Shown in pieces: positions 1 through 11,912 of a stretch of 11,912 nucleotides of DNA. Location: NCBI GenBank assembly GCA_938008575.1, contig CALLKB010000045.1:1-11912 (forward strand), read 5' to 3'. The stretch is from an uncultured Cytophagaceae bacterium (GTDB lineage Bacteria; Bacteroidota; Bacteroidia; Cytophagales; Spirosomataceae). The position numbers and the translations under genes were made by a program. Positions within the stretch are counted from its first letter, which is position 1. Each line of letters opens with the position of its first letter. The notes under the pieces were generated by a model. That model saw only the letters and a program-made list of their open reading frames with translations. It was not told the DNA's origin and did no database searches.

Positions 1-189
1 GGTACCATCACCGCAAGCTTAACAGGTTTGGCATCTAAGGCTAGCAACATCAACGGAGGAACCTTAGGGGCGCTACCATATCAATCGGCAGCTAATACAA
101 CGTCGCTTTTAACCGGAAGTACTTCAGCCACCAAACAATTCTTAACACAAACTGGAACAGGTTCCGCATCTGCTGCTCCTGCTTGGGGA
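1..189 (+). repeat. PYQSAANTT module, copy 1 of 3
   Basis: The 63 residues begin [14 protein letters not shown], pass through [10 protein letters not shown] and end near APAWG. Copy 2 is at 1093-1284 and a more divergent copy 3 at 3193-3330. Copies 1 and 2 agree at most residues, but the DNA differs at many third codon positions. This kind of module (fibre residues, then a 'solved result' motif ending xPxW) is common in tail-fibre-like proteins. Confidence 0.75.
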
Positions 190-3100
190 TCTATGGTTAT
201 TGCAGACGTATCCGATTTAGGAACAGGCGTAGGTGGATTCTTAGGAACACCTACCAGCGCAAACTTAGCCACAGCCGTGACGAATGAAACAGGCTCAGGG
301 GCTTTGGTATTTGCGAACTCTCCTACTTTAGTAACACCTACCTTGGGTGTGTCATCCGCGACGAGCGTTGGCTTTGCTGGTTCAACATCCGGTACAGCAA
401 CCTTAGCAGCACCAGCAGTCGCAGGAACAACAACGATTACATTGCCAGGTGCTACGGGAACCTTAGCAACATTGGCAGGAACGGAAACCTTGACCAATAA
501 AACATTAACGAGCCCTGTGTTAATCACACCTGATTTGGGCGTGCCATCAGCAATTGACTTGAGTAATGCCAGCAGCTTACCCGTAGCAGCCATTACAGGA
601 ACATTGCCCATCACGAAAGGAGGTACAGGGGCAACTACTGCGGCAGCCGCATTAACCGCATTGGGAGCACAATCCACAGCCAATTTAAGTACTGACGTTG
701 CTGCAGATGCCGCATCTACAACAAAATACCCAGCAGTAAAATACATCAAAGAATACGTTGACGCTAGCATTACCTCCGGCGCGCCAGATGCTGATGCTAC
801 GACGAAAGGAAAAATACAGTTGGCCGGTGACCTAACAGGAACTGCCGCTTCTCCCGCCATCGCTGCCAGTGCAGTAACGACTGCCAAAATCAATAACGAT
901 GCGGTTACATCTGCAAAGATTGCCGATGGAACGATTGTAAATGCCGACATCAATGCATCTGCTGCGATTGCTGATACCAAATTGGCGACAATCGCTACCG
1001 CAGGGAAAGTAAGCAATTCAGCCACAACAGCAACCGATGCGAATACAGCCTCGGCCATCGTTGCTCGTGATGCCAGTGGCAATTTCACGGCAGGAACAAT
1101 TACGGCCAACTTAACTGGTTTAGCGAGTAAAGCAACTAACTTGAACGGGGGTGCCGTAGGTTCAATACCTTACCAAAGCGCAGCGAACACAACAACCTTA
1201 TTAGCAGGTAACTCATCTGCAACTAAGAAATTCTTGACACAAAGCGGTGATGGAACATCTGCTGCAGCACCAGTTTGGGCGGGAGTTGCCGTTTCTGATA
1301 TCACAGGTACTTTGCCAGTTGCCAATGGAGGTACCGGGGTAACATCCGTAGCCGCAAATCTCGTATTTGCAGGTCCTACTTCTGGAGCCTCAGCCGCAGC
1401 ACCAAGCTTCCGAAGCTTAGTTGCAGCGGATTTACCTTCCGGTTCGACGAACTATGTAATCAATGGAACGACCCAACAAGCTAGCACCGATTTCAATATC
1501 AGTGGATCGGGTACCATTGGAACAACCTTAGCAGTAACCGGTAACACAACCATCGGTGGTACTGCTACGATTACAGGCGCTACAACCCTATCAGCTTTAA
1601 CAGCTACCAAAGGAGTCTTCACAGACGCATCGAAGCGTTTGACAAGTACTGGAACGTTGGGGACCGATCAAGGAGGTACAGGAATGACATCCTTTAATAG
1701 TGGTGGTGCCATGTATGCAACGAGTACTTCTGCCTTAACGACGGGAACTTTACCTACGAGTGCGGGTGGAACAGGTTTAACCTCCTTTACGAGTGGTGGT
1801 GCATTATATACGACAAGTACAACAGCGGTCACTTCAGGTACTTTACCGGTAACAGCCGGTGGTACAGGTTTGGCGAGCATTAGTGCGAGTCAAATCACGT
1901 TTGGTAATGGAACAAGCGCATTGGGTACAAGTTCAAATTTAGTTTGGGATAATACCAATGCGCGATTGGGTATTGGTATCAGCACCCCTTCAGCTACGTT
2001 TCAAATTGGAACGGAATCCGCTGACAACTTAAAGTACTATGTCGATGCCAACAGTAACAATACATTAAAACTAGGTTACCGTGCTACAGGCTGGTTGATG
2101 CGTACCGGAAACAATTCCGGCGTTGCGACCGACTTGAATTTTTCATATATGAACAGCGGAGGAACTTCCGACATTTTAACTGTCAGCAATTTAGGTTCTG
2201 TGATTGTAAATGGCCCATTGAATGTTAGTACAACTGCAACAGCCTTATCAGGATCATTTACCAATTTAGATTTAGCTAATTCAGCCATTCATTACAGTGG
2301 TACGGATAATAAATTAGGAATCTTTACTTCGGCCCCTACGTCAAAGTTCCAGATTTTTGGCGATACGAATGCCGACTTCCCATTAAAGTATGATGCGGAT
2401 TTAAGTGGTGGAACGATGACCTTGAGTTTCCGTTCGAAAGCTTTCAAAATCATGACGAACCAAAACAGTGGCACGTTAGAAAATTTGACCTATTACTATA
2501 ACAATGGTACGACAGACACACAAATCATGCAATTAAATAATTATGGCCAAGTACGTATACCTGCTTTAATATTACCTACTGGGGCGGCTGCTGGAAAATA
2601 CTTAACATCAGATGCGAATGGTGTGGCTTCATGGGCAGATGTAAATGCATCTGGAAACTTAGTTACCTTAACGGGAACCCAAACGTTAACCAATAAATCT
2701 TTTACGGCACCAGCCCTAGGAACACCCGCATCAGGTGTTTTAACCAATGCAACGGGCTTACCTTTAACTACGGGTGTAACGGGTATTTTACCGATTGCCA
2801 ACGGAGGTACAGGTTCAGCAACACAAAACTTTGTGGATTTAACAACCGCACAAACTATAGCAGGTGCTAAAACATTTTCATCAACGATTGTGGGATCCAT
2901 TTCAGGCAATGCTGCCACAGTAACGAATGGAGTTTATACAACAAATAAATTAAGTGCTTTATCAGCTACAACATCTGCTGAATTAGCGGGAGTCATTTCT
3001 GATGAAACAGGAACGGGATCTTTGGTATTCGCTACCTCTCCTACCTTGGTAACGCCAACTATCGGCGCCGCAACTGGAACAAGTTTAAGTGTTACAGGTC

Positions 3101-4650
3101 AGTTGACATCAACCGTTGCCACAGGTACTGCACCTTTAGTTGTTACTTCTACTACGCCGGTTACGAATTTAAATATTGGAGGAAATGCAGCAACTGCTAC
3201 AACAGCTACGAACATTGCCGGTGGTTTAGCTGGATCGCTCCCTTATCAAACTGCTGCAGGTACGACAACTTTATTGGCCAAAGGGACAGATGGACAATTC
3301 CTAACTTTAGTCAGTGGAGCACCTGCCTGGTCGACGTCAAGTGCGGTGACGAGTGTAGGAGCTATTTCAGCATCTTCTACAGCCAATGGAGCTAGTATCA
3401 CTTCCAATGTCCTCAACTTAGCGCCTGCAGATGGCACCAATGGTGGTGTCGTTACTACCTCAGCACAAAGCTTTGCGGGGATAAAAACCTTTGCAAATAC
3501 GACTGCGAGTACATCCACAACAACGGGGGCAGTTATTGTCTCAGGTGGTTTGGGTGTTGCCAAATCAATGTATGTTGCTGAAGACTCCTATATCAATGGT
3601 TTGAAAATTGGTAAAGGCCTAGCCTCATTGTCAACAAACATCGCGATTGGGGCCTCAACCCTAGCGGCAGCTACAACTGGGGATAAAAACGTTGCAATCG
3701 GTTCAAATGCATTGGCTGCTAATACCAATGCAACAGATAACACCGCAATAGGTTACAATACATTGGCTGCCAATACAGTTGGCTCAGGGAATACGGCCAT
3801 CGGCAGTGGTTCAATCAGCGCAATGAATAACGCAACTTCAGGTAATGTCCTACGAAATACGGCTGTCGGGAATGCAACGTTATCAGCCATGACATCCGGA
3901 GCTTACAATACTGTGATGGGAACTTTCGCATTAGCGGATATGACTAGTGGATCTTCCAATGTAAGTATTGGTAACGAGGCTGGTCAAAAAATCGGTATTG
4001 GTTCTGTTAGTAATACGCAAATGAATACCTCAGTCATTATAGGAGCTGATGCGCGAACTCTTGGAAGTGGTGAAAGTAATGCTATAGTAATTGGATACCA
4101 AGGTAGAGGTTTAGGATCAAATACGGCGGTGATAGGTAATGCATCAACTACTATGACATCATTAAACGGTGAAGTCCTTGTTGGAAGTACAACCGATGCC
4201 GGTGATTATAAATTACAAATTACAGGTAATTCAAAATTAACAGGGACACTAACAGTAGTAGATGGTTCCCAAGGAGCAGGAAAAGTTTTAATATCCGATG
4301 CAAATGGTTTAGCAACTTGGTCAGCAAATAGTAATGGAGGTGTTTCGTCAATATCTGCGACTGCAACCATGGCAGCTACCGATAATTACAATCTTATTGT
4401 ATTTTCTGGATCTACTTCTGGTCAAACAATTACATTACCAAGCGCATCAGCAGCAGGTGCAGGTCGTGAAATTACAATTAAGAATATTGCAAGTGTAACT
4501 GTAGCAGTAGCAGCCACCTCAGGTAACTTAATTTCAGATAGTACAACGACATCTGCAACTGGTTTAAACATTGGAACTGAACCGTCAAATAACTGGATAA
4601 AGGCGATATCAACAGGCACCAACTGGATCATCTTACGAGCATTGTTCTAA
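1..4650 (+). CDS. Giant phage-tail-fibre-like repeat adhesin, 5' end outside window
   Basis: The frame is open to base 1 and ends at TAA 4648-4650, giving 1549 visible residues; the start and any signal peptide lie upstream. The protein is rich in Thr, Ser, Ala and Gly, and I see no cysteine. In order it shows: a GTITAxLTG / PYQSAANTT module (residues 1-63, again near 365-428, looser near 1065-1110); TLTNK modules (161-210 and 893-938); an AKI/DI ladder (291-331); three GTLP-GGTG units (551-626); two head-like LGI domains (656-740, 772-853); a [12 protein letters not shown] motif near 1176; a YadA-head-like AIG section (1213-1330); and a beta cap (about 1445-1549) ending NWIILRALF. These motifs are typical of tail fibres and of Bacteroidota secreted fibre proteins. 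I infer a long trimeric surface fibre. No catalytic motif or outer-membrane anchor is visible. Confidence 0.85.
286..348 (+). repeat. [19 protein letters not shown] motif, copy 1 of 2
   Basis: Residues 96-116 of the visible protein contain [13 protein letters not shown] and TLVTPTLG. The same 21-residue element returns at 3004-3066 with three or four conservative changes ([19 protein letters not shown]). It is a familiar tail-fibre element. Confidence 0.7.
481..630 (+). repeat. TLTNK-to-GGTG module, copy 1 of 2
   Basis: Fifty residues begin [14 protein letters not shown] and end [11 protein letters not shown]. The second copy is at 2677-2814. The pattern '[10 protein letters not shown] ... 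LP ... GGTG' is widespread in long tail fibres and in Bacteroidota fibre proteins, where it forms beta-rich trimeric shaft. No enzymatic role is implied. Confidence 0.75.
1093..1284 (+). repeat. PYQSAANTT module, copy 2 of 3
   Basis: The 64 residues begin [14 protein letters not shown], contain [10 protein letters not shown] and [10 protein letters not shown], and end APVWAG. Alignment to copy 1 at 1-189 needs only a one-residue gap. The preceding [12 protein letters not shown] is a well-known lead-in in tail-fibre proteins. Confidence 0.75.
1651..1878 (+). repeat. Tandem 93-nt repeat with GGTG core, 2.45 copies
   Basis: Units start at 1651, 1744 and 1837, each opening GTLx and reaching xGGTGxxS after about seven residues. 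The two full units are 31 codons each, continuing S-F-x-S-G-G-A-x-Y-x-T-S-T; the third stops after 14 codons and runs into a different domain. This is the only clearly tandem repeat in the gene. The units are in frame, so gain or loss of one would lengthen or shorten the fibre without breaking it. Third-position differences show that the duplication is not very recent. Confidence 0.85.
1966..2220 (+). repeat. LGI head-like domain, copy 1 of 2
   Basis: About 85 residues begin [15 protein letters not shown], contain [21 protein letters not shown] and an [13 protein letters not shown] strand, and end near GSVIVNG. A paralogous copy is at 2314-2559. The opening LGIGxxxPxxxFQI resembles the N-terminal TGIGTTxPxxKxQV of genes 4713, 7092 and 11783, so this may be an internal version of the same unit. 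Confidence 0.65.
2314..2559 (+). repeat. LGI head-like domain, copy 2 of 2
   Basis: About 82 residues begin [16 protein letters not shown], contain [20 protein letters not shown] and [13 protein letters not shown], and end GQVRI. The order of strands matches copy 1 at 1966-2220, but sequence identity is moderate. It is followed by [14 protein letters not shown] (about 2596-2637), which recurs as [14 protein letters not shown] at about 4279-4320. Confidence 0.65.
2677..2814 (+). repeat. TLTNK-to-GGTG module, copy 2 of 2
   Basis: Forty-six residues begin [19 protein letters not shown], continue through [12 protein letters not shown] and end [11 protein letters not shown]. It is followed by the [12 protein letters not shown] motif, another common fibre element. 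It aligns to 481-630 with a short gap in the middle. Confidence 0.75.
3004..3066 (+). repeat. [19 protein letters not shown] motif, copy 2 of 2
   Basis: This is the second copy of the element at 286-348, about 2.7 kb away in the same gene. Protein identity is high, while codon choice differs at several positions. Confidence 0.7.
3193..3330 (+). repeat. PYQTAAGTT module, divergent copy 3 of 3
   Basis: This stretch encodes [33 protein letters not shown] and GAPAW. It keeps the order of copies 1 and 2 but is several residues shorter between the leucines and the final Trp. Confidence 0.6.
3637..3990 (+). repeat. YadA-head-like AIG repeats
   Basis: The encoded stretch has recurrent degenerate units: [54 protein letters not shown] and NVSIGNEAG. 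They are spaced roughly 15-22 residues apart. The pattern (N-x-A-I-G-x-x-A-L) is that of the left-handed beta-roll head repeats of trimeric autotransporter adhesins such as YadA. Here the section sits near the C-terminus and is followed by a fibre cap rather than a 12-strand membrane anchor. The fold is inferred from the motif. Confidence 0.7.
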
Positions 4651-4655
4651 AATAC

Positions 4656-4684
4656 AATTGTCATATTTTCCAAATTCGACAATT
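4656..4684. repeat. Small inverted repeat in the 62-nt gap
   Basis: AATTGTC at 4656-4662 is matched by GACAATT at 4678-4684 across a 15-nt AT-rich spacer. The stem is only seven pairs, is poor in G+C and has no T tract after it, so it is a weak terminator candidate at best; an operator half-site pair is equally possible. No convincing Bacteroidota promoter (TTTG near -33, TAnnTTTG near -7) is visible in 4651-4712, so gene 4713 may be read through from upstream. Confidence 0.25.
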
Positions 4685-4712
4685 CATTAATAAAAGTCTT
4701 TATGAGACAAAT

Positions 4713-5681
4713 ATGAAAAAGCTATTAACTGTTTTCCTTATTGTATTAGCAATTTTCCAAAATAGAAAATTATTAGCTCAAACAGGTATAGGTACAACAG
4801 CTCCCGTGAATAAATTCCAAGTAGAAACGGCTACGGCAGATCCCGCTACAAGTGGTTCTGCAGCCAATGGAAATTTGCGTCTGAGTGGTTTATCGGTGGC
4901 TCATGTTTTGGATTTTGGCTTAGGTAATACGAGTAATTTTGCTTGGATTCAAGCAAGAAATAAGACCTATGGTACGAATTACAATTTGGCATTAAATCCT
5001 TTGGGAGGTAATGTGGGCATTGGTACCTCCTCGCCTACTGCGAAATTGAATCTTGTGGGTGGTGGCATGCGAATCTACGATGGATTCACAAATAGTGGTA
5101 CAAGACCCGCCATTAATACCAGTAGCATTGGGAATTATGAAATTCGTGGTGTAGGATCCGCAACAGGAACAGTCCAAGCAGATGGAGCAGATGATGGCTT
5201 TCTGCGACTTTCCGCGGGGGGGGGGACAACAACAACTGCACAGTCTTCCATTGATATTTCAGGTTTTTCGAATACAGCCGATATGAACAATAACATCGTC
5301 TTTCGTACCGCTGGGACGGAACGTATGCGGATAGATTTAAATGGGAATGTCTTAGGTTCAAACAGCAATACTCTATCGGGTTTTGGAGCAACGATTTCTT
5401 CTATTTCAGCTGCTTATACCCTTGCTGCTACCGACAATGCAGAAGTAATTAAATCGGACGCTGCTTCCGCGATAACTGTGACGATTCCGACAGGTTTACC
5501 TACGGGTTTCAACTGCATGGTCTTGCAATATGGCGCGGGACAAATCACCTTTGCTGCTGCAAGTGGGGTGACAATTATCAATCGGAACTCCTATACGAAA
5601 ACATTAGGCCAATATGCGATTGCGACTGTCTTGCATTTGGGAAGTAATATTGTGGTTATATCAGGTGAATTAGGAAATTAA
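4713..5681 (+). CDS. Exported short fibre protein with in-frame G10 tract
   Basis: The product has 322 residues. Residues 1-22 form a Sec signal peptide (KK, hydrophobic core, LLA) with Gln23 as the predicted first mature residue. Residues 23-116 are a QTGIGTTAPVNK module that is repeated, with high identity, in the gene at 7092. The middle (about 117-220) contains LRLSAGGG, encoded by a run of ten G, and a GTERMRIDLNGNV motif common just after fibre domains. The C-terminal third (about 228-322) has SAAYTLAATDN, TVTIPTGLP and VLQYGAGQITF, resembling beta-rich caps of phage fibre proteins. I infer a secreted fibre subunit; no enzyme motif is seen. The start follows a 62-nt gap, and an upstream ATG at 4702 ends after four codons. 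The stop overlaps the next start by one base. Confidence 0.85.
   Translation: MKKLLTVFLIVLAIFQNRKLLAQTGIGTTAPVNKFQVETATADPATSGSAANGNLRLSGLSVAHVLDFGLGNTSNFAWIQARNKTYGTNYNLALNPLGGNVGIGTSSPTAKLNLVGGGMRIYDGFTNSGTRPAINTSSIGNYEIRGVGSATGTVQADGADDGFLRLSAGGGTTTTAQSSIDISGFSNTADMNNNIVFRTAGTERMRIDLNGNVLGSNSNTLSGFGATISSISAAYTLAATDNAEVIKSDAASAITVTIPTGLPTGFNCMVLQYGAGQITFAAASGVTIINRNSYTKTLGQYAIATVLHLGSNIVVISGELGN
4779..5060 (+). repeat. QTGIGTT N-terminal module, copy in gene 4713
   Basis: The 94 residues directly after the signal peptide share QTGIGTTxPVNK, VETATADP, NGNLRLSG, HVLDFGL, ARNKTYGTNY and NPLGGNVGIGTS with the module at 7152-7433. Most residues are identical, whereas many third codon positions differ, pointing to an old duplication kept under protein-level selection. 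Confidence 0.85.
5216..5225 (+). repeat. Homopolymer tract of ten G inside a coding region
   Basis: Ten consecutive G lie within the codons for Ala168-Gly171 of the 322-residue protein. At ten G the frame is intact. Removing one G brings TGA at 5284-5286 into frame (about 190 residues); adding one brings TGA at 5252-5254 into frame (about 180 residues). Both would remove the C-terminal cap. Tracts of this type are classic slipped-strand phase-variation sites. A sequencing miscall of tract length is also possible, but ten keeps the gene open. Confidence 0.8.
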
Positions 5682-7102
5682 TGATAAGGATACTGATTAT
5701 ATTTTTACTGATACCTTCTGTCTTGCTGGCGCAATTCTATTCGCCGAGCTATGCAGGAAATGTATCGAAAAATAATCTCTATGTGAATTATGATTTTAGT
5801 AAATCAAGCTCCTACCCTGGATCAGGCACAACGGTGTATAGCACAACGACGAATGCGGTAAGTGCAAGTCTCGCAAACAGTCCTACCTATTTCTCTGATC
5901 CGGGTTACCTTCGTTTTATTGCGGGAAGTTCCCAATACATGATAATAGGAGACTTTAAAAACGCATACTCACCCGTGAGCCCTAGTACGAGATCAGGAGT
6001 TTTCACCTTAAGCCTTTGGTTTAATCCCACAGCACTTAATGGAGTTGTCGTATCTGATTTAGATAACACAATACCGGGAGGCGGCTATCATACCTCAGAT
6101 ATTGAGATGGTAGCAGGATATTTAAAATTTTCTGTTTGGCCCAAAAACACCGTTCTTACCACAGCCACTACTGTTACACTCAATGAATGGCACCATGTGG
6201 TATTGGTATATACAGGAACACAAGTCAAAGCCTATTTAGACAATACATTAGTAGGTACAGCAACTTATACGCGTTCGGGTCCACACATGGGCAGTTATAC
6301 GGCTGCTCAATATTTTGGTATAGCAGCATATGATGGCACACACATGGGATCAGGTGCTTATGGGAGTTTTTTGTTGGCCGATGTAAAATTCTTTTCAGCT
6401 GCTTTGGGAGATGGGGAGGTGAATTCAATTTACCAACAAGAGAAATCAAATTATGATTTAGTGTTTTATTTGGATGGAGGTAATACAACTTCTCTGGCGA
6501 CTTCAGGGGCAACCGCTTGGAATGATATATCGGGACATGCCAAATCAGGGGATATTGGAGCAGGCATGTCTTACAATGCAACTGCGAGTGGAAGCATGTA
6601 TTTTAATGGGGCTAGTACTGCTTATTCAAATTTTAGCTGTGGATTAAATGGGACTTCTACTATTACAGTTGAAATGTGGGTAAAGCCAACTACGCTATCT
6701 GGTGGCATGTTTTTTGGCTTTTACCGTTATGACGTATTTACCACGGGAGGTGGTTTGGGATACAATACGGCAGGTGGAGATCTCTATGGTATAAATTCCA
6801 CCCAAACCAGTGGTTTTGTCAATACTTGGAAACACTATGTGTTCGTCATGAATGCAGGTTCAGTGACATCCAATAAGATTTATGTCAATGGAGTCTCCCA
6901 AACTTTAGCACTTCGAACAGGGACCATTCAAAATGCTAATACCAATTTTAATGGGGGAATTGGCCGAATTGCTTGTTGGGCCAATGACAATGCATACATG
7001 CAACAGATGTACATCACCAAATTTAAAATTTACGACCGTGAACTTACGCAAGCTGAAATCACGAATAACTTTAATAAAGACAAAGCAAGACATGGACTTT
7101 AA
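5681..7102 (+). CDS. Exported protein with two LamG (concanavalin-like) domains
   Basis: The product has 473 residues. Residues 1-17 are a signal peptide (VLLA) with Gln18 at the predicted mature end. Two Laminin-G/concanavalin-A-like domains fill the rest. The first (about 31-258) has FTLSLWFNP, the hallmark EWHHVVLVYTG at 169-179 and KAYLDNTLVG. The second (about 259-473) has VFYLDGGNT, TVEMWVKP, TWKHYVFVMN at 382-391, KIYVNG and a closing LTQAEITNNFN. LamG domains of this sort bind glycans or proteins; I see no ExDxxE glycoside hydrolase motif, so binding rather than cleavage is favoured. The ATG shares its A with the preceding TAA stop, and AGGA at 5672-5675 could help re-initiation. The last 11 bases overlap the next gene. 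The tail ARHGL resembles the ARYGR tail of gene 8047. Confidence 0.85.
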   Translation: MIRILIIFLLIPSVLLAQFYSPSYAGNVSKNNLYVNYDFSKSSSYPGSGTTVYSTTTNAVSASLANSPTYFSDPGYLRFIAGSSQYMIIGDFKNAYSPVSPSTRSGVFTLSLWFNPTALNGVVVSDLDNTIPGGGYHTSDIEMVAGYLKFSVWPKNTVLTTATTVTLNEWHHVVLVYTGTQVKAYLDNTLVGTATYTRSGPHMGSYTAAQYFGIAAYDGTHMGSGAYGSFLLADVKFFSAALGDGEVNSIYQQEKSNYDLVFYLDGGNTTSLATSGATAWNDISGHAKSGDIGAGMSYNATASGSMYFNGASTAYSNFSCGLNGTSTITVEMWVKPTTLSGGMFFGFYRYDVFTTGGGLGYNTAGGDLYGINSTQTSGFVNTWKHYVFVMNAGSVTSNKIYVNGVSQTLALRTGTIQNANTNFNGGIGRIACWANDNAYMQQMYITKFKIYDRELTQAEITNNFNKDKARHGL

Positions 7103-8045
7103 ACGCATATTTATTTTCGCAATTTTAGGCTTAAGCTTTGGAGCAAAAGCCCAAACGGGTATCGGTACCACGACACCCGTAAATAAATTACAGGTGGAAA
7201 CAGCGACCGCTGATCCTTTATCGAGTGGAACGACTGCAAACGGAAATTTACGTTTGAGTGGGCCATCCCCTGCTGTACATGTCTTGGACTTTGGTTTGAG
7301 TAGTACGTCTACGTTTGCTTGGATGCAGGCTCGGAATAAAACGTATGGCACCAATTATTTTTTAGGTATTAATCCTTTGGGGGGAAATGTAGGAATTGGA
7401 ACTTCTGCACCATTATCAACCCTAACCGTAGGTAATGCAGGAGGTACCATTTCCGGTGAAATCACCATCAATCCGCAAGGTGCTTCAAATGAAGGCGGTC
7501 AAATTACCCTAAAAAAATCATTATCTGGACCAACAAATGATTGGACCATAGATACCTATGGAGATAACTTAGCCAACGCACGTTTTCGAATTTTTAATGG
7601 CTCAGATGCAACAACTGGTTTAAGCATAAAAGAAAATGGGTTTGTTGGATTAGGGAATATTGCACCTACCGTTCGGTTACAGGTAACTGGCGACATTATC
7701 GCAAATTCAATCGCTGGTTCTTCTGACATCCGTTTCAAGAAAGACATCTCCCCTATTGAAAATCCATTGGCCAAAGTTATGCAGTTGCGGGGCGTGAATT
7801 TCAACTGGAATACCTCGGCCTTCCCACAACGCATGTTCTCCGAAAAACGTACGATGGGTTTCATCGCTCAGGAAGTTGAAAAAGTTGTACCTGAAATTGT
7901 CCAAACAGAAAACACAGCAGAAGGATTTAAATCCGTACAATATGACAAGATAGTTGCCTTACTCGTGGAGGCAGTGAAGGCCCAACAAAAACAAATTCAA
8001 CAATTAAAACGCGAAGTCAAAAAATTGAAGAAACAAGCACGCTAG
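7092..8045 (+). CDS. Exported fibre protein with Peptidase_S74 chaperone domain
   Basis: The product has 317 residues. The ATG at 7092 is chosen because it opens a proper signal peptide (MDFKRIFIF...AKA) with Gln21 as first mature residue; an ATG 159 nt upstream would add an unrelated hydrophilic stretch inside the previous gene. Residues 21-114 repeat the QTGIGTT module of gene 4713. A short beta-rich part with GFVGLGNIAP and VTGDIIANS leads to residues 210-300, a Peptidase_S74 / intramolecular chaperone auto-processing domain: SSDIRFKKDI at the expected cleavage point (before or at Ser211-Asp212), then GVNFNWN and MGFIAQEVEKVVPEIV. The end (about 294-317) is a Lys/Gln-rich coiled coil. In phage tail spikes this domain guides trimerisation and is then cut off. 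Self-cleavage here is inferred, not shown. It overlaps the preceding gene by 11 nt. Confidence 0.88.
   Translation: MDFKRIFIFAILGLSFGAKAQTGIGTTTPVNKLQVETATADPLSSGTTANGNLRLSGPSPAVHVLDFGLSSTSTFAWMQARNKTYGTNYFLGINPLGGNVGIGTSAPLSTLTVGNAGGTISGEITINPQGASNEGGQITLKKSLSGPTNDWTIDTYGDNLANARFRIFNGSDATTGLSIKENGFVGLGNIAPTVRLQVTGDIIANSIAGSSDIRFKKDISPIENPLAKVMQLRGVNFNWNTSAFPQRMFSEKRTMGFIAQEVEKVVPEIVQTENTAEGFKSVQYDKIVALLVEAVKAQQKQIQQLKREVKKLKKQAR
7152..7433 (+). repeat. QTGIGTT N-terminal module, copy in gene 7092
   Basis: This 94-residue copy matches 4779-5060 motif for motif, in the same position directly after the signal peptide. Six consecutive G at 7379-7384 fall in NPLGGNV. The corresponding place in the other copy reads GGGAGG, so this shorter run is probably incidental. 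Confidence 0.85.
7719..7995 (+). other. Peptidase_S74 chaperone domain within gene 7092
   Basis: Residues 210-301 carry the family signature S-D-I-R-x-K-K-D-I, the GVNFxW strand and the GFIAQEVEKVxPE helix. The Ser-Asp pair and the following Lys residues needed for Ser/Lys-type self-cleavage are all present, so nothing in the sequence argues against activity. Confidence 0.85.
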
Positions 8046-8046
8046 G

Positions 8047-10413
8047 ATGAAGTATTTCTTTGGGATATGTTTATGGATTTGTAGTCTGAACGTTTGGGGA
8101 CAAATGATCACAGCGCCTGCGCCCTTAACCATTGAGGCGAATGCCAGCAATGTGGATGCGGGGGATTTTGTGGTTAACTGGGCAAACACAACAGAGCAAA
8201 TTTTGGTATCGATTAGTTTGGAATACCATAATGGAGCGACATTTTCCTTACCTGTTACGACTGGCTTAACCTTGAATACAGGCTATACATTGTGGACGGG
8301 AATTACGAGCATCGTATTTTATGGAACTAAGACCAACGTCAATACGGCGCTTGCTGCCATGACAATATCCATGGGTGCAGTAAAAACGGCTGTTAAAATC
8401 AATGTGGAGGCTTCAGGCTATGATGCCAATTATGTTTACAATCCGGCGAATAAACACTTTTATCGCTATGTCGCAGGAAATATAACCTATGCTACTGCCA
8501 AAACGAATGCAGCCACCTACAGTTTCAAGGGAAAAACAGGCTACATGGTCACGGTTACATCCGATGCAGAAAACAATTTTATCAATACGAATATTTCTGG
8601 TTCAAATGTTTGGCTAGCCATCACGGATGCCGTCACGGATGGAACCTGGGTCATCGATGCGGGGCCGGAATTGGGTACGGTCTTGAAAACACAAAATGGA
8701 CCTACGGCTGGAAATATCGATGGACAATATAATAATTGGTGTACCGGAGAACCCAATGGCGCAAACCACTCGGAAGATTATGCCGTAGGAAAATGGAATA
8801 GTAATACGTGTTGGAATGATTTACCCAATACCTATTCCGGAGTAGCAGGTTTTGTCGTCGAAATCAGTGCGGATTTCCCAGCTGGATCGGATTATACGGG
8901 TGTTTATTCCACATACGCCGTGCATAATAATGACATCGCGTTTTCGTTGGCATCAGCTAACAATACGACATTAAATTCCACAACGGTTTCGAATTACCCC
9001 AACCTCTTTGGTGGTTTGCAAATCAATACAGGGAATACTATTACTTTAAATACATCAACTACCTTGAATACGAATAAAATCATATTCAACGGGACAGGGA
9101 AATTGGTTTTAACGGATAATACAAGTAAATGGACACCAGGAACGGCAAGTACCACGAACACTTTTGTCCATAGCCCTACGACAAACTCGACCCCAAACTA
9201 TTGGTCGGTGACCAGCTCATGGAATTATACGACAGGCTCTACAGGTGCTGGTGACCCCTTTTATGAGAATGCTCCATATCCGGGTACAGGTCTTGCATTG
9301 CATCAAACTCCCTATTTAAATTCACCACAAGGCTGGTCGGCACAAGTGAACAATACAAGCCAATACATTCAATTAAGTTATCCCGTACCAGTTTATATGA
9401 CAGGTTTAGTTACGCAAGGTCGTGCCTATAACGGTGGACAATGGGTTACAACGGCCAATGTGGATGTCAGTTTAGATGGGACAACGTGGACGAATGTGCT
9501 AACTGGAGCCTCCATTAACACAAATTCAACCGATGCGGTTACCGTACTTTTTCCTTCCGTGGTTTACGCAAGGTTCATTCGACTCAATCCGACGGCTTGG
9601 AACGGTCACATTACCATGCGTATGGGAGCTATCATTAAATCAACACCTAGCATATCGGATGGATTAGTTTTGAATTTAGATGCAGGTAATCTTATATCGC
9701 ACAATGGTACTTCTACAACCTGGAGGGATTTATCCAGTTCCACGAATCATGGTACACTAACCAATGGGCCAAGCTATAATATCTCAAATCGAGGATTTGT
9801 TACTTTTGATGGTGTGGATGATTATGTTAATGGCGTTGCGATTCCATCCACAAGCGGAAATAATTCACGGACGGTCATGGTTTGGTATAAGTCGACGGCC
9901 AATAAAAATACGATCTTATTAGACAAAGGAGCCGTTACAGATGACAAATCGGAACAATTGGTATTAGTTTATACGAATGGTGCTGGCGTTGGGGCAGGTT
10001 CCTATCCACCAACCAATAATGGAGGCATTGGTGTCTGTTTTTGGGGAAGTGATTTGATTTATCCGATTGCTGCCACGACCCTATTCGATGGAAACTGGCA
10101 TTTTGTGGCCTATACCTACGACAATTCCAACACCTCCGTCCGAATTTGCTTTGATGGTAAATTTGCAGCATCCGTTTATCAGTGGAATACGAGCGCATGG
10201 TCAACGAATACTTCCAAACCCTTTGTTTTACCTAGAACTCAAAATACCACGAATAATCCCTATTTAATTGGTCAATCCCGAGCAGCCTTTTGGGGGTATG
10301 GAGGTACCTTTAGCAATGTCAGTATACCTTTGCTACAGATTTATAACCGGGCCTTAACGGAAGCAGAAATATTAACCAATTACAATGCAACCCGAGCGCG
10401 CTATGGCAGGTAG
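8047..10413 (+). CDS. Exported C-type lectin / discoidin / LamG protein
   Basis: The product has 788 residues. Residues 1-18 are a signal peptide (NVWG), with Gln19 next. An N-terminal beta domain (about 20-125) of unknown type is followed by a C-type lectin domain (about 130-274): W189-L-A-I-T-D, E235-P-N237, E243, and W256-N-D258, then GFVVEIS. These match the five calcium- and sugar-binding side chains of mannose-binding protein, including the six-residue step from the EPN Asn to the next Glu. Only two cysteines lie in it (232, 255), at non-canonical places. A linker with NKIIFNGTGKLVLT (343-356) leads to an F5/8C discoidin-like domain (about 384-530; LVTQGRA, VDVSLDGTTW, ARFIRLNP) and a LamG domain (about 537-788; FDGVDDYV, NWHFVAYTYD). 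I infer a multivalent glycan-binding surface protein. The start lies one base after the previous stop. Confidence 0.87.
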   Translation: MKYFFGICLWICSLNVWGQMITAPAPLTIEANASNVDAGDFVVNWANTTEQILVSISLEYHNGATFSLPVTTGLTLNTGYTLWTGITSIVFYGTKTNVNTALAAMTISMGAVKTAVKINVEASGYDANYVYNPANKHFYRYVAGNITYATAKTNAATYSFKGKTGYMVTVTSDAENNFINTNISGSNVWLAITDAVTDGTWVIDAGPELGTVLKTQNGPTAGNIDGQYNNWCTGEPNGANHSEDYAVGKWNSNTCWNDLPNTYSGVAGFVVEISADFPAGSDYTGVYSTYAVHNNDIAFSLASANNTTLNSTTVSNYPNLFGGLQINTGNTITLNTSTTLNTNKIIFNGTGKLVLTDNTSKWTPGTASTTNTFVHSPTTNSTPNYWSVTSSWNYTTGSTGAGDPFYENAPYPGTGLALHQTPYLNSPQGWSAQVNNTSQYIQLSYPVPVYMTGLVTQGRAYNGGQWVTTANVDVSLDGTTWTNVLTGASINTNSTDAVTVLFPSVVYARFIRLNPTAWNGHITMRMGAIIKSTPSISDGLVLNLDAGNLISHNGTSTTWRDLSSSTNHGTLTNGPSYNISNRGFVTFDGVDDYVNGVAIPSTSGNNSRTVMVWYKSTANKNTILLDKGAVTDDKSEQLVLVYTNGAGVGAGSYPPTNNGGIGVCFWGSDLIYPIAATTLFDGNWHFVAYTYDNSNTSVRICFDGKFAASVYQWNTSAWSTNTSKPFVLPRTQNTTNNPYLIGQSRAAFWGYGGTFSNVSIPLLQIYNRALTEAEILTNYNATRARYGR
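8434..8868 (+). other. C-type lectin domain with complete calcium-site residues
   Basis: Within gene 8047, residues 130-274. EPN at 235-237 predicts mannose/glucose/fucose-type rather than galactose-type (QPD) specificity by analogy with animal lectins. Glu243, Asn257 and Asp258 complete the principal calcium site. The usual outer disulfide cysteines are absent; Cys232 and Cys255 flank the ligand loop and may pair instead. Confidence 0.8.
9073..9132 (+). repeat. NKIIFxGTGKLxLT linker module, copy in gene 8047
   Basis: Twenty residues from NKIIFNGTGKLVLT to SKW precede the discoidin-like domain. An equivalent stretch at 10624-10683 precedes the discoidin-like domain of gene 10426. Fourteen or so of 20 residues are identical. 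I do not recognise this as a named domain; it resembles one turn of a right-handed beta-helix or a small beta-hairpin. Confidence 0.7.
9196..9636 (+). repeat. F5/8C discoidin-like domain, copy in gene 8047
   Basis: Residues 384-530 contain GWSAQVNNTSQYIQL, GLVTQGRA, QWVTTANVDVSLDG, ARFIRLNP and ITMRMG, in the order and spacing of F5/8 type C domains (strand, W, 'I.TQG', 'Y.v..S.DG..W', 'aRyiRl.p', 'lR.e'). It is paralogous to 10723-11124. Such domains usually bind galactose-containing glycans, other sugars or membranes. Confidence 0.75.
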
Positions 10414-10425
10414 CGTTCATAACTG

Positions 10426-11781
10426 ATGAAAACCTTAGGATTTATCTTTTTTTGCTGGATACTAACACCGACACTTTGGGCGCAAACAACGACCAACAGT
10501 GCTGGTACGGGCACGTTTACAAATACGGGCACATGGACGAGTCCGCAAAACCTGACGGGAACGGCGACCATTATGGATGGGCATACCGTGAACATTCCGA
10601 ATAATATCAATCCCGTTTATTCCAACAAAATCATCTTTTCAGGAACTGGAAAGTTAGCTTTAACTGGAACTTCGAGTAAATGGATAGCGGCGACGATTAT
10701 GAACGCGTCTCCCTCAATGGAGTCCTTTAATCTCTCGACGAACTGGTCGGCATCCAGTGTTTACATCAATGATTCCTTTGGAATAACGCACAATACCCCA
10801 TGGATTGATTCGGGACAAGGATGGTCGGCAGGAACGGCCAATAGTGGGACAGATTATTTACAATATGACTTAAAAAGTCCGCGCTGGGTGCAGGGAATAG
10901 TTTCGCAAGGTAGAGCTAATGCCGCACAGTGGGTAACGTCGGCAAAAGTGGATGTCAGTTTAGATAATATCAATTGGGTACCCGCAGCGACAAACTTCAC
11001 TATGAATAGTGACCAAACCACCAAAGTCTACAATAATTTCGCGAATGTTATGTATGCACGTTACGTACGCGTGACACCATTAACGTCTTATGTATATGCC
11101 ACCATGCGGCTTGGCGTTTTATTGCGCGACTATCCTTTTAAATCCTGCCATGAGATACTAACCAATTTCCCACAGGCCACATCGGGCATCTATGTCATCG
11201 ACCCGGACGGATACGCGGGGGCTAACCCATCGACTAACTGTTATTGCGATATGTCAACAGATGGTGGTGGATGGACTTTGGTCTTGAATTATTTACATGC
11301 CGGAAATACCAATCCAGCTTTAGTAGTCAAAACAAATTCCTTGCCTTTGCAAGGCTCAACTACCCTAGGAACCGATGAATCTGCATCTGCCTCAACTTGG
11401 GGGAATGTTTCGAACACCTATTTGAGTGCATTTACGTTCAGCGAATTACGCTTTTATGCCAAAACTTCGGCACATACGCGTGTGATTCATTTTAAAACCT
11501 CACACACGAATACGATGAATTACTTTCTTACAGGAACGGGGAGCATGTCAGGAATTGGGACAGCTGGGAATTATACGGCGCTAACGGGTCATTCGTCTTA
11601 TTTACCTGCCAGTTCAGCGAGTTATTTTACAAATCAAGGTAATGCTGCCATGACGGAATTTCCATTTTGGCTAAATGGAACGTATCACTGGGGGATCCGT
11701 GGAGGTGGTTCACGCTGGGAAGTGGACGATTATCCTGGGAACTCAGCTAATAGTACTTTGCATCAAATTTGGATTAGATAA
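10426..11781 (+). CDS. Exported discoidin / fibrinogen-C-like protein
   Basis: The product has 451 residues. Residues 1-19 are a signal peptide (TLWA) with Gln20 as mature start. A Thr/Gly-rich stretch and the NKIIFSGTGKLALT module (67-80) lead to an F5/8C discoidin-like domain (about 100-233; GIVSQGRA, VDVSLDNINW, ARYVRVTP, ATMRLG). Residues 240-451 begin like a fibrinogen C-terminal globular domain: Ser-Cys-His-Glu-Ile-Leu, SGIYVIDPDG at 253-262, and CDMSTDGGGWTLV at 274-286. The later part (WGIRGGGSRWEVDD, then a short end) lacks the cysteine pair and NLNG-type tail of animal fibrinogens, so the C-terminal half is diverged or short. Animal relatives (ficolins, tachylectins) bind acetylated sugars. 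Here glycan binding is inferred. The start lies 12 nt after the previous stop, with no clear Shine-Dalgarno site. Confidence 0.85.
   Translation: MKTLGFIFFCWILTPTLWAQTTTNSAGTGTFTNTGTWTSPQNLTGTATIMDGHTVNIPNNINPVYSNKIIFSGTGKLALTGTSSKWIAATIMNASPSMESFNLSTNWSASSVYINDSFGITHNTPWIDSGQGWSAGTANSGTDYLQYDLKSPRWVQGIVSQGRANAAQWVTSAKVDVSLDNINWVPAATNFTMNSDQTTKVYNNFANVMYARYVRVTPLTSYVYATMRLGVLLRDYPFKSCHEILTNFPQATSGIYVIDPDGYAGANPSTNCYCDMSTDGGGWTLVLNYLHAGNTNPALVVKTNSLPLQGSTTLGTDESASASTWGNVSNTYLSAFTFSELRFYAKTSAHTRVIHFKTSHTNTMNYFLTGTGSMSGIGTAGNYTALTGHSSYLPASSASYFTNQGNAAMTEFPFWLNGTYHWGIRGGGSRWEVDDYPGNSANSTLHQIWIR
10624..10683 (+). repeat. NKIIFxGTGKLxLT linker module, copy in gene 10426
   Basis: Residues 67-86 read NKIIFSGTGKLALT and then reach SKW. 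This is the paralogue of 9073-9132 and sits in the same position relative to the following discoidin-like domain. Confidence 0.7.
10723..11124 (+). repeat. F5/8C discoidin-like domain, copy in gene 10426
   Basis: Residues 100-232 align with 9196-9636 at GQGWSA, GIVSQGRA, QWVTSAKVDVSLD, ARYVRVTP and ATMRLG. It is somewhat shorter at its N-terminal end. DNA identity is clearly lower than protein similarity. Confidence 0.72.
11144..11778 (+). other. Fibrinogen-C-like domain in gene 10426
   Basis: Residues 240-451. The first third is unmistakable (SGIYVIDPDG, then CDMSTDGGGWTLV); Cys241, Cys272 and Cys274 are the only cysteines. The canonical animal calcium loop (DxDxD) and the second disulfide are not seen. 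WEVDDYPG near 431-438 is a possible acidic replacement. Confidence 0.75.
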
Positions 11782-11782
11782 C

Positions 11783-11912
11783 ATGAAAATACTAAGCATC
11801 ACATTATTGTTCATTAGTTTAGGGACCTATGCTCAAACGGGTATTGGTACTACCACTCCCAACTCATCGGCGAAGTTGGAGGTCTATGCCACCAACAAAG
11901 GCTTTCTCCCTC
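11783..11912 (+). CDS. Exported QTGIGTTTP fibre protein, 3' end outside window
   Basis: Only 43 full codons are visible. The ATG lies one base after the preceding TAA and opens a signal peptide ending GTYA, followed by Gln18 and the sequence TGIGTTTPNSSAKLEV, then NKGFLP, where the window stops. In Bacteroidota this opening, with 'KGFLxPRMT' usually next, belongs to secreted tail-fibre-like proteins that often end in an S74 domain. The family is clear from these few residues, but the rest of the protein, and whether it carries a chaperone or lectin end, cannot be seen. Confidence 0.8.
   Translation, partial: MKILSITLLFISLGTYAQTGIGTTTPNSSAKLEVYATNKGFLP

Follow-up and report, generated by a model that had tools for sequence, protein, structure and literature searches.

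What would a bacterium build from a compact run of genes that joins phage-fibre-like proteins to lectin-type binding modules? The question arose from positions 4713–11912 of an 11,912-nt stretch of DNA (the window, meaning the whole stretch). Six consecutive ORFs occupy this section (Table 1; starts refined by eye), and their junctions measure −1, −11, +1, +12, and +1 nt, in order. All six N-termini carry a hydrophobic stretch followed by Q (9-mer hydropathy maximum 2.46–3.6), which is signal-peptide-like by a hydropathy heuristic rather than by SignalP and suggests export past the inner membrane. The initial annotation had described six tightly packed genes of exported type, in agreement with these data. 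The limits that it set to the array hold for the six genes, but the array extends upstream and takes in at least the fibre ORF 1–4650. The spacing suggests that the array genes are co-transcribed. Terminator-like sites were absent from the junctions; the region 4500–11912 contained eight, all intragenic (mean of 6.4 in shuffles). Promoter-like sites numbered 21 (18.5 expected), and neither RNA families at gathering scores nor tRNAs were found in the window. Our answer, held with about even confidence, is that the locus encodes an exported array of adhesive fibres whose lectin-type heads have genes of their own, fibre and head being made together.

Table 1. Features of the array and of the fibre gene that precedes it in the window.
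Feature	Positions	Strand	Basis
Giant fibre protein with repeats (≥1549 aa; begins before the window)	1..4650	+	open ORF
Type 2 short exported fibre (TGIGT N-terminus, phage-fibre-tip C-terminus)	4713..5681	+	PHROG, family alignment, AlphaFold, Foldseek
C-terminal tip domain like phage fibre/capsid-spike tips	5400..5678	+	predicted structure, structure matches
LamG head, two ConA-like domains, partner of preceding fibre	5681..7102	+	Pfam Laminin_G_3, 12/12 partner rule
Type 1 short exported fibre (TGIGT N-terminus, S74 intramolecular chaperone)	7092..8045	+	Pfam, structure 6f45
S74 motif SDxxxK (SDIRFK)	7722..7739	+	motif before lectin head, 8/8 loci
Head: N-terminal beta domain, C-type lectin, linker, discoidin, LamG	8047..10413	+	
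Conserved head N-terminal domain, proposed docking domain	8104..8421	+	117/120 listed relatives; distance tracking
C-type lectin domain, calcium-site residues complete	8425..8892	+	profile and residue conservation
F5/8C (discoidin) domain, exchanged among relatives	9160..9639	+	
C-terminal LamG/ConA-like domain, exchanged or replaced in relatives	9664..10410	+	
Second head: discoidin and fibrinogen-like YCDxxxxGGGW domain, after a head, not a fibre	10426..11781	+	
Further TGIGT-type gene, start only, cut by window end	11783..11912	+	signal-peptide-like start, then AQTGIGTTTP

The array was compared with those of seven Bacteroidota relatives, giving eight loci with 51 array proteins. The fibre of 7092–8045 matched Pfam Peptidase_S74 (2.2e-17). 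Its S74 domain also matched the long tail fibre distal subunit 6f45, which we take to be S16 gp37 (E = 2.6e-11), and MyRF (0.0024). SDxxxK was present in the fibre preceding the lectin head at 8/8 loci. By profile and motif, this protein is a member of the Peptidase S74/intramolecular chaperone family; as such it is predicted to cleave itself and to assemble as a trimer. The other short fibre, 4713–5681, matched PHROG virion and tail families (best 1.4e-13). Its AlphaFold model had block means of pLDDT of 83–90 (residues 231–290), then 52, 81, 79, and 48 (62.8 for the whole model), and the tip gave 133 viral structure matches in Foldseek at E ≤ 0.001. The Pa223 capsid spike 9ny6 (E = 1.4e-4) was the only PDB match at that threshold. 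The tip fold, as modelled, is phage-like.

The C-terminus of the giant fibre resembled those of the relatives' giants in a side-by-side comparison, and a long fibre-like ORF lies immediately 5' of the array at five related loci (L001, L002, L004, L006, and L007). The giant is probably a long stalk or anchor. By eye, its C-terminus also seemed homologous to the tip of 4713–5681; a probability of 11% over 28 columns left this unsupported.

No C-type lectin was matched by Pfam in the window head protein 8047–10413 at E ≤ 1, and Pfam called the domain in five of the 51 array proteins, which include eight lectin heads. A profile of the N-terminal and lectin region (A2, 13 sequences) reached the lectin CEL-I at 1.7e-7; the family profile thus matches solved C-type lectins, although Pfam misses the window copy. 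Residues E235, N237, E243, N257, and D258, presumably the calcium site if the EPN, E, and ND placement that we assume from mannose-binding protein applies, were invariant in 30 sequences (alignment A1). Among the best 120 of 697 relatives, the EPN and WND motifs occurred together in 118 (the EPN pattern was absent in two), and the N-terminal domain was present in 117. The lectin part of the window head is a C-type lectin domain with a presumed calcium site, and its conserved residues suggest that it uses calcium. The absence of the N-terminal domain from the structure matches of the head is uninformative, because discoidin and LamG matches filled that list. The ConA-like structure matches include receptor-binding parts of clostridial neurotoxins, which reflects a shared fold only.

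The remaining modules were identified directly. LamG was found in 5681–7102 (Pfam Laminin_G_3, 9.9e-28, two stretches). F5/8C was found in 8047–10413 (3.2e-18) and 10426–11781 (2e-17) by Pfam, and these discoidin domains are F5/8C by both profile and fold match. In 10426–11781, the Pfam Fibrinogen_C match (3.4e-6) covered only profile positions 3–50 of 221, and NCBIfam identified a YCDxxxxGGGW domain (6.2e-19), which occurs in 7/51 array proteins.

Fibres and heads follow a simple gene grammar. The C-type-lectin head lies directly 3' of an S74 fibre at all eight loci, and each of the twelve phage-tip fibres is followed by a LamG or PA14 head. Fibre and head are encoded by separate genes in all 20 pairs, whose junctions span −1 to +5 nt with one L007 head start shifted to its first methionine; the pairs are not 20 independent events, because they share ancestry and the lectin head served to collect the loci. 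Exceptions were also observed. A ninth S74 fibre (L001:16067–17653, S74 internal) is followed by another fibre, both discoidin/fibrinogen-like heads (window 10426–11781 and L001:14713–16122) come after a head, and some TGIGT proteins (258–542 aa) have no recognised head. Over the eight loci, distances for the 45 residues before S74 tracked those of the head N-terminal domain (r = 0.63, p = 0.006) and did not track those of discoidin (r = 0.07, p = 0.31). The correlation may be plain linkage, because the N-terminal domain is the head part nearest the fibre gene.

Besides the stalks, for which the S74, 6f45, and PHROG matches speak, the initial annotation had proposed four module types and a dedicated adhesive apparatus in one array. 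All four types are real: profile searches found F5/8C, LamG, and part of the fibrinogen-like domain as well as S74, and the lectin, missed by Pfam in the window, was recovered by the family profile and the invariant site. The gene order, sought in other Bacteroidota, is kept for the S74 fibre and lectin head in the seven relatives and the window, and at 7/8 loci the gene run also includes a LamG head (the L006 contig stops shortly beyond its lectin head). The complete four-module set did not generalise, since the discoidin and fibrinogen-like head was recognised in 2/8 loci (window and L001). Because fibre and head are contiguous at every locus, the module types are real, and Pfam found no glycan-cutting enzyme family in the 51 array proteins, the annotation's reading was not overturned, and its dedicated adhesive apparatus in a single array is supported. 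Prey and polymers, which it suggested as targets, remain speculative. Absent from it are the pairing rule, the phage-like tip of 4713–5681, the swapping of tip domains, and the homologous phage proteins for the lectin head.

The heads could instead be independent secreted or periplasmic glycan binders that merely share an operon with the fibres, the locus capturing polysaccharides for nutrient uptake. We consider this unlikely: the 51 proteins contain 10 Pfam families, namely binding-type or extracellular domains and S74, with no glycoside hydrolase, lyase, SusD, or TonB family, and lectin and LamG/PA14 heads adjoin their own fibre type in 20/20 pairs.

The tips vary above a constant head N-terminal part. 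Among the best 120 of 697 relatives, 57 carried discoidin and LamG, 32 discoidin only, 21 a fibrinogen-like tip, and four a second LamG; three lacked the N-terminal domain and three were of viral type. For 19 heads divided into N-terminal/lectin, discoidin, and LamG parts, AU tests rejected a common tree in 6/6 cross tests (p ≤ 6.4e-5). The part trees are incompatible, and therefore the tips recombine; the proteins tested come largely from metagenome assemblies, in which chimeras are possible. Gene conversion between the two adjacent discoidin genes was unsupported as the source, because the discoidins of 10426–11781 and of its L001 counterpart group apart in a clade of their own (100/100). 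A diversity-generating retroelement was also considered, and reverse transcriptase (RVT_1) matches were found in 0/7 relative genomes.

The closest kin of the lectin module are mostly phage proteins. Sixty-five viral contigs encode a relative of the head, 64 of them with both the N-terminal and lectin domains; the viral L074 begins inside the lectin. In tblastn searches with 8047–10410, no place covering 80% was found for either a plasmid origin (three records, lectin part) or a known-phage origin (11 records, LamG part, 26–30% identity). These phage relatives could mean that the array proteins are decoys or superinfection factors against phages, the lectin head being shared because both bind the same host or neighbour surface glycan. 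The large terminase in 10/24 viral records examined and the closeness of array and viral lectins in the tree are compatible with this; however, that grouping is supported only at 90/74 to 93/97, in the phage head relatives neither a discoidin nor a LamG nor a fibrinogen-like tip was seen, and their neighbours included no TGIGT fibre. We regard it as very unlikely. A separate LamG-like gene was present at seven phage loci.

Microscilla marina is a species of Bacteroidota. Injection systems carry S74 fibres, Microscilla marina being one example, and eCIS fibres, which are phage-like, are described as bearing C1q and lectin-type modules besides S74 (available text of PMC12923769). The array has phage-like fibres, S74, and lectin-type modules in common with them. 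Such fibres could belong to what is left of a phage, a tailocin, or an extracellular contractile injection system, as the S74 domain, the phage-like tips, and the 49 PHROG families that match the S74 fibre at E ≤ 0.1 might suggest. Unlike in an eCIS, a contractile sheath gene was found in 0/7 relative genomes, which are metagenome-assembled and possibly incomplete, the flanking ORFs being judged by eye; moreover, 6/6 window genes start like those of exported proteins. We regard this origin, too, as very unlikely.

Export bears on a further alternative, in which the array would consist of moving surface adhesins on the type IX/gliding motor. Like SprB/SprF and RemA, gliding adhesins of Flavobacterium, its proteins would be large surface adhesins in Bacteroidota with a type IX system. 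GldM was found in 7/7 relative genomes, with gldKLMN ~14–17 kb from the array in G031 and GldM ~19 kb away in G026 and G028. In L004, a gene just 5' of the giant fibre encodes a small protein that bears a T9SS sorting domain, and L007 has a similar one by eye; cultured Aquirufa regiilacus glides (available text of PMC10821818). However, no type IX sorting domain, type A or B, occurs in the 51 array proteins, whereas SprB belongs to the type B substrates, with SprF as its carrier (available text of PMC12635249). None was detected in the giant-fibre ends of the window, L007, and L004 (L004 by Pfam only), and this search of array proteins and giant-fibre ends identified no outer-membrane route. 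Upstream of the giants are genes for three proteins that look outer-membrane-like by eye; none of the three matches a family above its cut-off. Gliding adhesins therefore seem improbable, and the adhesive fibre array with separate heads remains our preferred reading.

Two known systems come close to such an array. The MAT fibres of Bdellovibrio bacteriovorus, as far as the available text describes them, fall into S74 and non-S74 classes with a signal peptide and SDxxxK, and combine a conserved base with exchangeable tips, among them the C-type lectin fold, for which glycan recognition is presumed (PMC10769870). The array has all of these in common with them, its signal peptides by hydropathy only, on a likewise phage-like fibre. 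A conserved beta-rich domain of ~130 aa follows the signal peptide in the MAT superfamily; the only sequence match of the array, to Bd2133, was non-significant (E = 0.65). The MAT tip lies inside the fibre polypeptide, whereas the array head is a separate gene right after the fibre; further differences from the MAT fibres as described are that fibre class tracks head class and that a single array stands behind a giant fibre.

The separate receptor-binding head directly after a class-matched fibre gene, seen in the 20 pairs, recalls the gp38 tip on the trimeric gp37 fibre of T2-type phages as described, and the S74 fibre resembles the phage fibre 6f45 in sequence. For T2 gp37 and PP01 gp38, a likely incompatibility is reported (available text of PMC12892980). 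In contrast to gp37/gp38, which are part of a virion, the array would be exported by the bacterium, and the folds matched by its heads are those of C-type lectins, discoidin, and LamG; the fold described for gp38 is a polyglycine sandwich. On the best reading, drawn by analogy, the array resembles gp37/gp38, would work like MAT fibres, and belongs to neither. It resembles a set of exchangeable hooks for the cell surface.

In the mechanism that we propose, a short phage-fibre-like protein, ending in a self-cleaving S74 chaperone or a phage-spike-type tip domain, would be produced together with the lectin-type head encoded just 3'. The conserved N-terminal domain of the head would most likely be the part that docks on the fibre, in the way that gp38 of T2-type phages docks on gp37. 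Displayed at the cell surface, with the giant upstream fibre as probable long stalk or anchor, the head would present to a glycan surface a calcium-dependent C-type lectin together with discoidin, LamG, or fibrinogen-like domains that can be exchanged, and might thereby mediate attachment to particles, other cells, or polymers. A fuller version is more tentative, and we consider it possible but rather doubtful: a bacterial surface organelle made from the parts of phage fibres, with the receptor-binding head as a separate gp37/gp38-like subunit matched to the fibre class instead of a fused tip, and with tandem fibre–head cassettes that can be expanded. Recombination of domains between strains would give the heads new tips, and an exported version of the lectin module would be carried by large phages, possibly ones that infect the same bacteria.

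Fibre–head pairing is directly testable, because the cultured freshwater genus Aquirufa encodes close relatives of the head (strain LEPPI-3A, 75% identity) and of the type 2 fibre (A. regiilacus, 74%). If our reading is true, some Bacteroidota would achieve adjustable recognition through phage-style fibres with interchangeable, separately encoded lectin heads, and the array would be a counterpart of the Bdellovibrio MAT fibres on a different assembly plan. It would also tie an exported lectin of phages to a bacterial adhesin, and would offer natural plug-and-socket parts for binding fibres.

The initial annotation had claimed a tight run of six exported proteins of fibre and lectin type, and this description was borne out. 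In our ORF reading, six tightly packed genes begin 62 nt after a giant fibre gene, of which the window contains the 3' portion, and their junctions, with starts refined, are −1, −11, +1, +12, and +1 nt (a range of −11 to +12 nt). All six (6/6) begin like exported proteins according to a hydropathy heuristic. The giant fibres end alike, with RALF as the last residues in 6/6 compared (window 4321-4650; L001, L002, L004, L006, and L007).

Features of the fibre-head array in the window
Feature	Coordinates	Remarks
Giant fibre gene, 3' part	1-4650	
Short fibre-like protein, type 2 (phage-like tip)	4713-5681	AQTGIGTT after signal-like segment
Short fibre-like protein, type 1 (S74-ended)	7092-8045	AQTGIGTT after signal-like segment
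Lectin-type proteins		three of the six genes, among them the two heads below
Lectin-type head	8047-10413	N-terminal domain, C-type lectin, linker, discoidin, LamG
Discoidin/fibrinogen-like head	10426-11781	
Further protein with the TGIGT motif	from 11783	cut by window end

The type 1 fibre carries a C-terminal S74 chaperone with SDxxxK, as do its counterparts (8/8 loci). It matched structure 6f45, the distal subunit of a phage long tail fibre, which we take to be S16 gp37, at 2.6e-11, and myelin regulatory factor at 0.0024; the match to the Bdellovibrio MAT protein Bd2133 (0.65) was non-significant. S74 is absent from the type 2 fibre. The predicted model of this protein is poor over the whole chain (62.8), with block means of 83–90 in residues 231–290. 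At E ≤ 0.001, the model matches 133 viral structures, including minor tail and tail-fibre proteins, several of them at 2–3 Å across ~100 columns, and the sole PDB match at that threshold is the Pa223 capsid spike (1.4e-4). The C-termini of the two short fibres, S74 in one and a phage-like tip in the other, are therefore both of kinds that phages use. In seven relative genomes, S74 hardly occurs outside the array, with 8/9 sites inside it.

These relatives came from scanning genomes at one per species, which yielded 12 loci: seven bear the array (L001–L007), and the remaining five showed the lectin only by the domain models used. L001–L007 belong to metagenome-assembled genomes of Bacteroidota that bear the label Cytophagaceae, Sediminibacterium, Flavobacteria, or plain Bacteroidetes. 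With the window counted, an S74 fibre lies directly 5' of a C-type-lectin/discoidin head at 8/8 loci, and a fibre with the phage-like tip directly precedes a LamG or PA14 head in 12/12 cases. The 20 fibre-head junctions measure −1 to +5 nt, with one L007 start shifted to the first methionine. A simple chance value for this pairing (8e-6) overstates the case, because the loci are related and were located through the lectin head. The rule has exceptions. A ninth S74 fibre (L001:16067-17653), a TGIGT protein longer than the others at 528 aa, has S74 internally at residues 330–387 and is followed by a tip-type fibre, with no lectin head; the discoidin/fibrinogen-like heads of the window and L001 (14713-16122) come after another head (2/2); and TGIGT proteins of 258–542 aa occur without a recognised head. 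Downstream neighbours are similar by eye in L002, L004, and L007 while array lengths differ, which suggests that the array grows by cassettes at one site.

Across the eight loci, distances in the 45 residues before S74 correlated with those of the head N-terminal domain at r = 0.63 (p = 0.006 by permutation). Values were lower for the linker (r = 0.43, p = 0.07) and for the lectin (r = 0.22, p = 0.09), and discoidin showed no correlation (r = 0.07, p = 0.31). The S74 domain itself gave 0.53, 0.33, 0.34, and 0.23, respectively. This pattern is compatible with docking through the head N-terminal domain; plain linkage fits equally well, because that domain is the head part closest to the fibre gene.

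Among the best 120 of 697 head relatives, the lectin is present in 120/120 and the N-terminal domain in 117/120. The lectin is followed by discoidin and LamG in 57, by the same plus a second LamG in four, and by discoidin only in 32; the others comprise 21 with a fibrinogen-like tip, three missing the N-terminal domain, and three of viral type. Pairs of close relatives diverge in individual domains. The N-terminal and lectin parts of the head relatives P0002 and P0010 are 100% identical, against 59% for discoidin, and P0008 and P0019 share 52% in the lectin and 97% in discoidin; each of these four is supported by 2–5 contigs and P0005 by one, and single cases may be assembly chimeras. For 19 proteins having all five parts, trees of the N-terminal plus lectin, discoidin, and LamG parts were mutually rejected (6/6 AU tests, p ≤ 6.4e-5). 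Neither a neighbouring discoidin gene as donor nor a retroelement as driver of tip exchange was supported. An alignment of 30 sequences showed two forms of the lectin at head residues ~205–230, one of which has roughly a dozen extra residues inserted ahead of the EPN site; both forms are mixed among heads that are otherwise similar.

N-terminal plus lectin relatives are also encoded on 65 viral contigs (L013–L077), with best-segment identities of 35–52%. In 49/65 the protein has 476–481 aa (e.g., L016:10001-11440 and L056:9953-11386), and its start resembles a signal peptide by eye. Large terminase was found in 10/24 viral records examined, of which 0/24 are rated at least 90% complete; the contigs reach 321 kb. 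On five contigs inspected, genes for small membrane proteins and for further exported-looking proteins surround the lectin gene; on L056 and L040, the protein that follows it looks peptidoglycan-binding by eye. When 103 lectin domains were placed in a tree, those of the arrays fell into a single clade (96/99) that groups with viral lectins and bacterial L085 and L087, apart from other bacterial ones, at less than full support (93/97). The lectin was likely exchanged between phages and bacteria, in either direction. Weak Dockerin_1 matches, below cut-off, occurred in 2/4 viral lectin proteins scanned, and 6/7 C-termini read (not L013) resemble GDVNLSHSS, GDINLSHSS, GDADLSSSS, or GDCDLSISS. A separate LamG-like gene (335–348 aa) lies several kb from the viral lectin gene in L022, L024, L054–L057, and L069.

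A contractile sheath gene was found in 0/7 relative genomes. Within the completeness of these assemblies, this result speaks against both an injection system and a contractile prophage in them. The 51 array proteins contain no glycan-cutting enzyme families and no type IX sorting domain; NCBIfam additionally identifies YCDxxxxGGGW in seven of them, fibro-slime in three, and TafC fimbrial protein in two. GldM is present in 7/7 relative genomes. It lies ~19 kb from the array in G026 and G028, and gldKLMN lies ~14–17 kb from it at L149 (G031). Two small genes, one of them lipoprotein-like, precede the giant fibre at L004 (2441-3406) and L007 (1-921). The protein encoded by the other bears a type IX sorting domain in L004, where it lies immediately upstream of the giant fibre, and its L007 counterpart looks similar.

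The system is patchy across the families surveyed. Strong N-terminal plus lectin profile matches occurred in 1/222 genomes of the G025 family, 1/244 of the G028 family, and 2/249 of the G029 family (G029 and G051), G029 carrying a second one of different architecture. Weaker matches occurred in 3, 29, and 78 further genomes, respectively; 28 such G029-family loci (L088–L115) have the lectin domain only by domain models. Eight G028-family genomes (L120–L124 and L126–L128) have open frames of 782–846 aa, in each of which a C-type lectin of this broad type is matched twice. The named relatives are Aquirufa (head 75%, type 2 fibre 74%), a freshwater genus according to PMC10821818.

The adhesion reading of the initial annotation is reasonable, and its mechanism is now testable; display, docking, and ligand are what we infer. 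In outline, the array resembles the MAT fibres of Bdellovibrio, surface fibres of S74 and non-S74 classes with a C-type lectin tip, as described in PMC10769870. The tips are fused to the fibre in Bdellovibrio, whereas the array encodes separate heads. Separate heads on a trimeric fibre are known in T2-type phages, for which PMC12892980 describes T2 gp37 and PP01 gp38 as likely incompatible; the separate head genes of the array match this feature. Our search, by title or abstract start and with subscription literature mostly outside it, found no paper on such fibre-head arrays. The array would unite MAT-type fibres with T2-type separate heads in an exported bacterial system.
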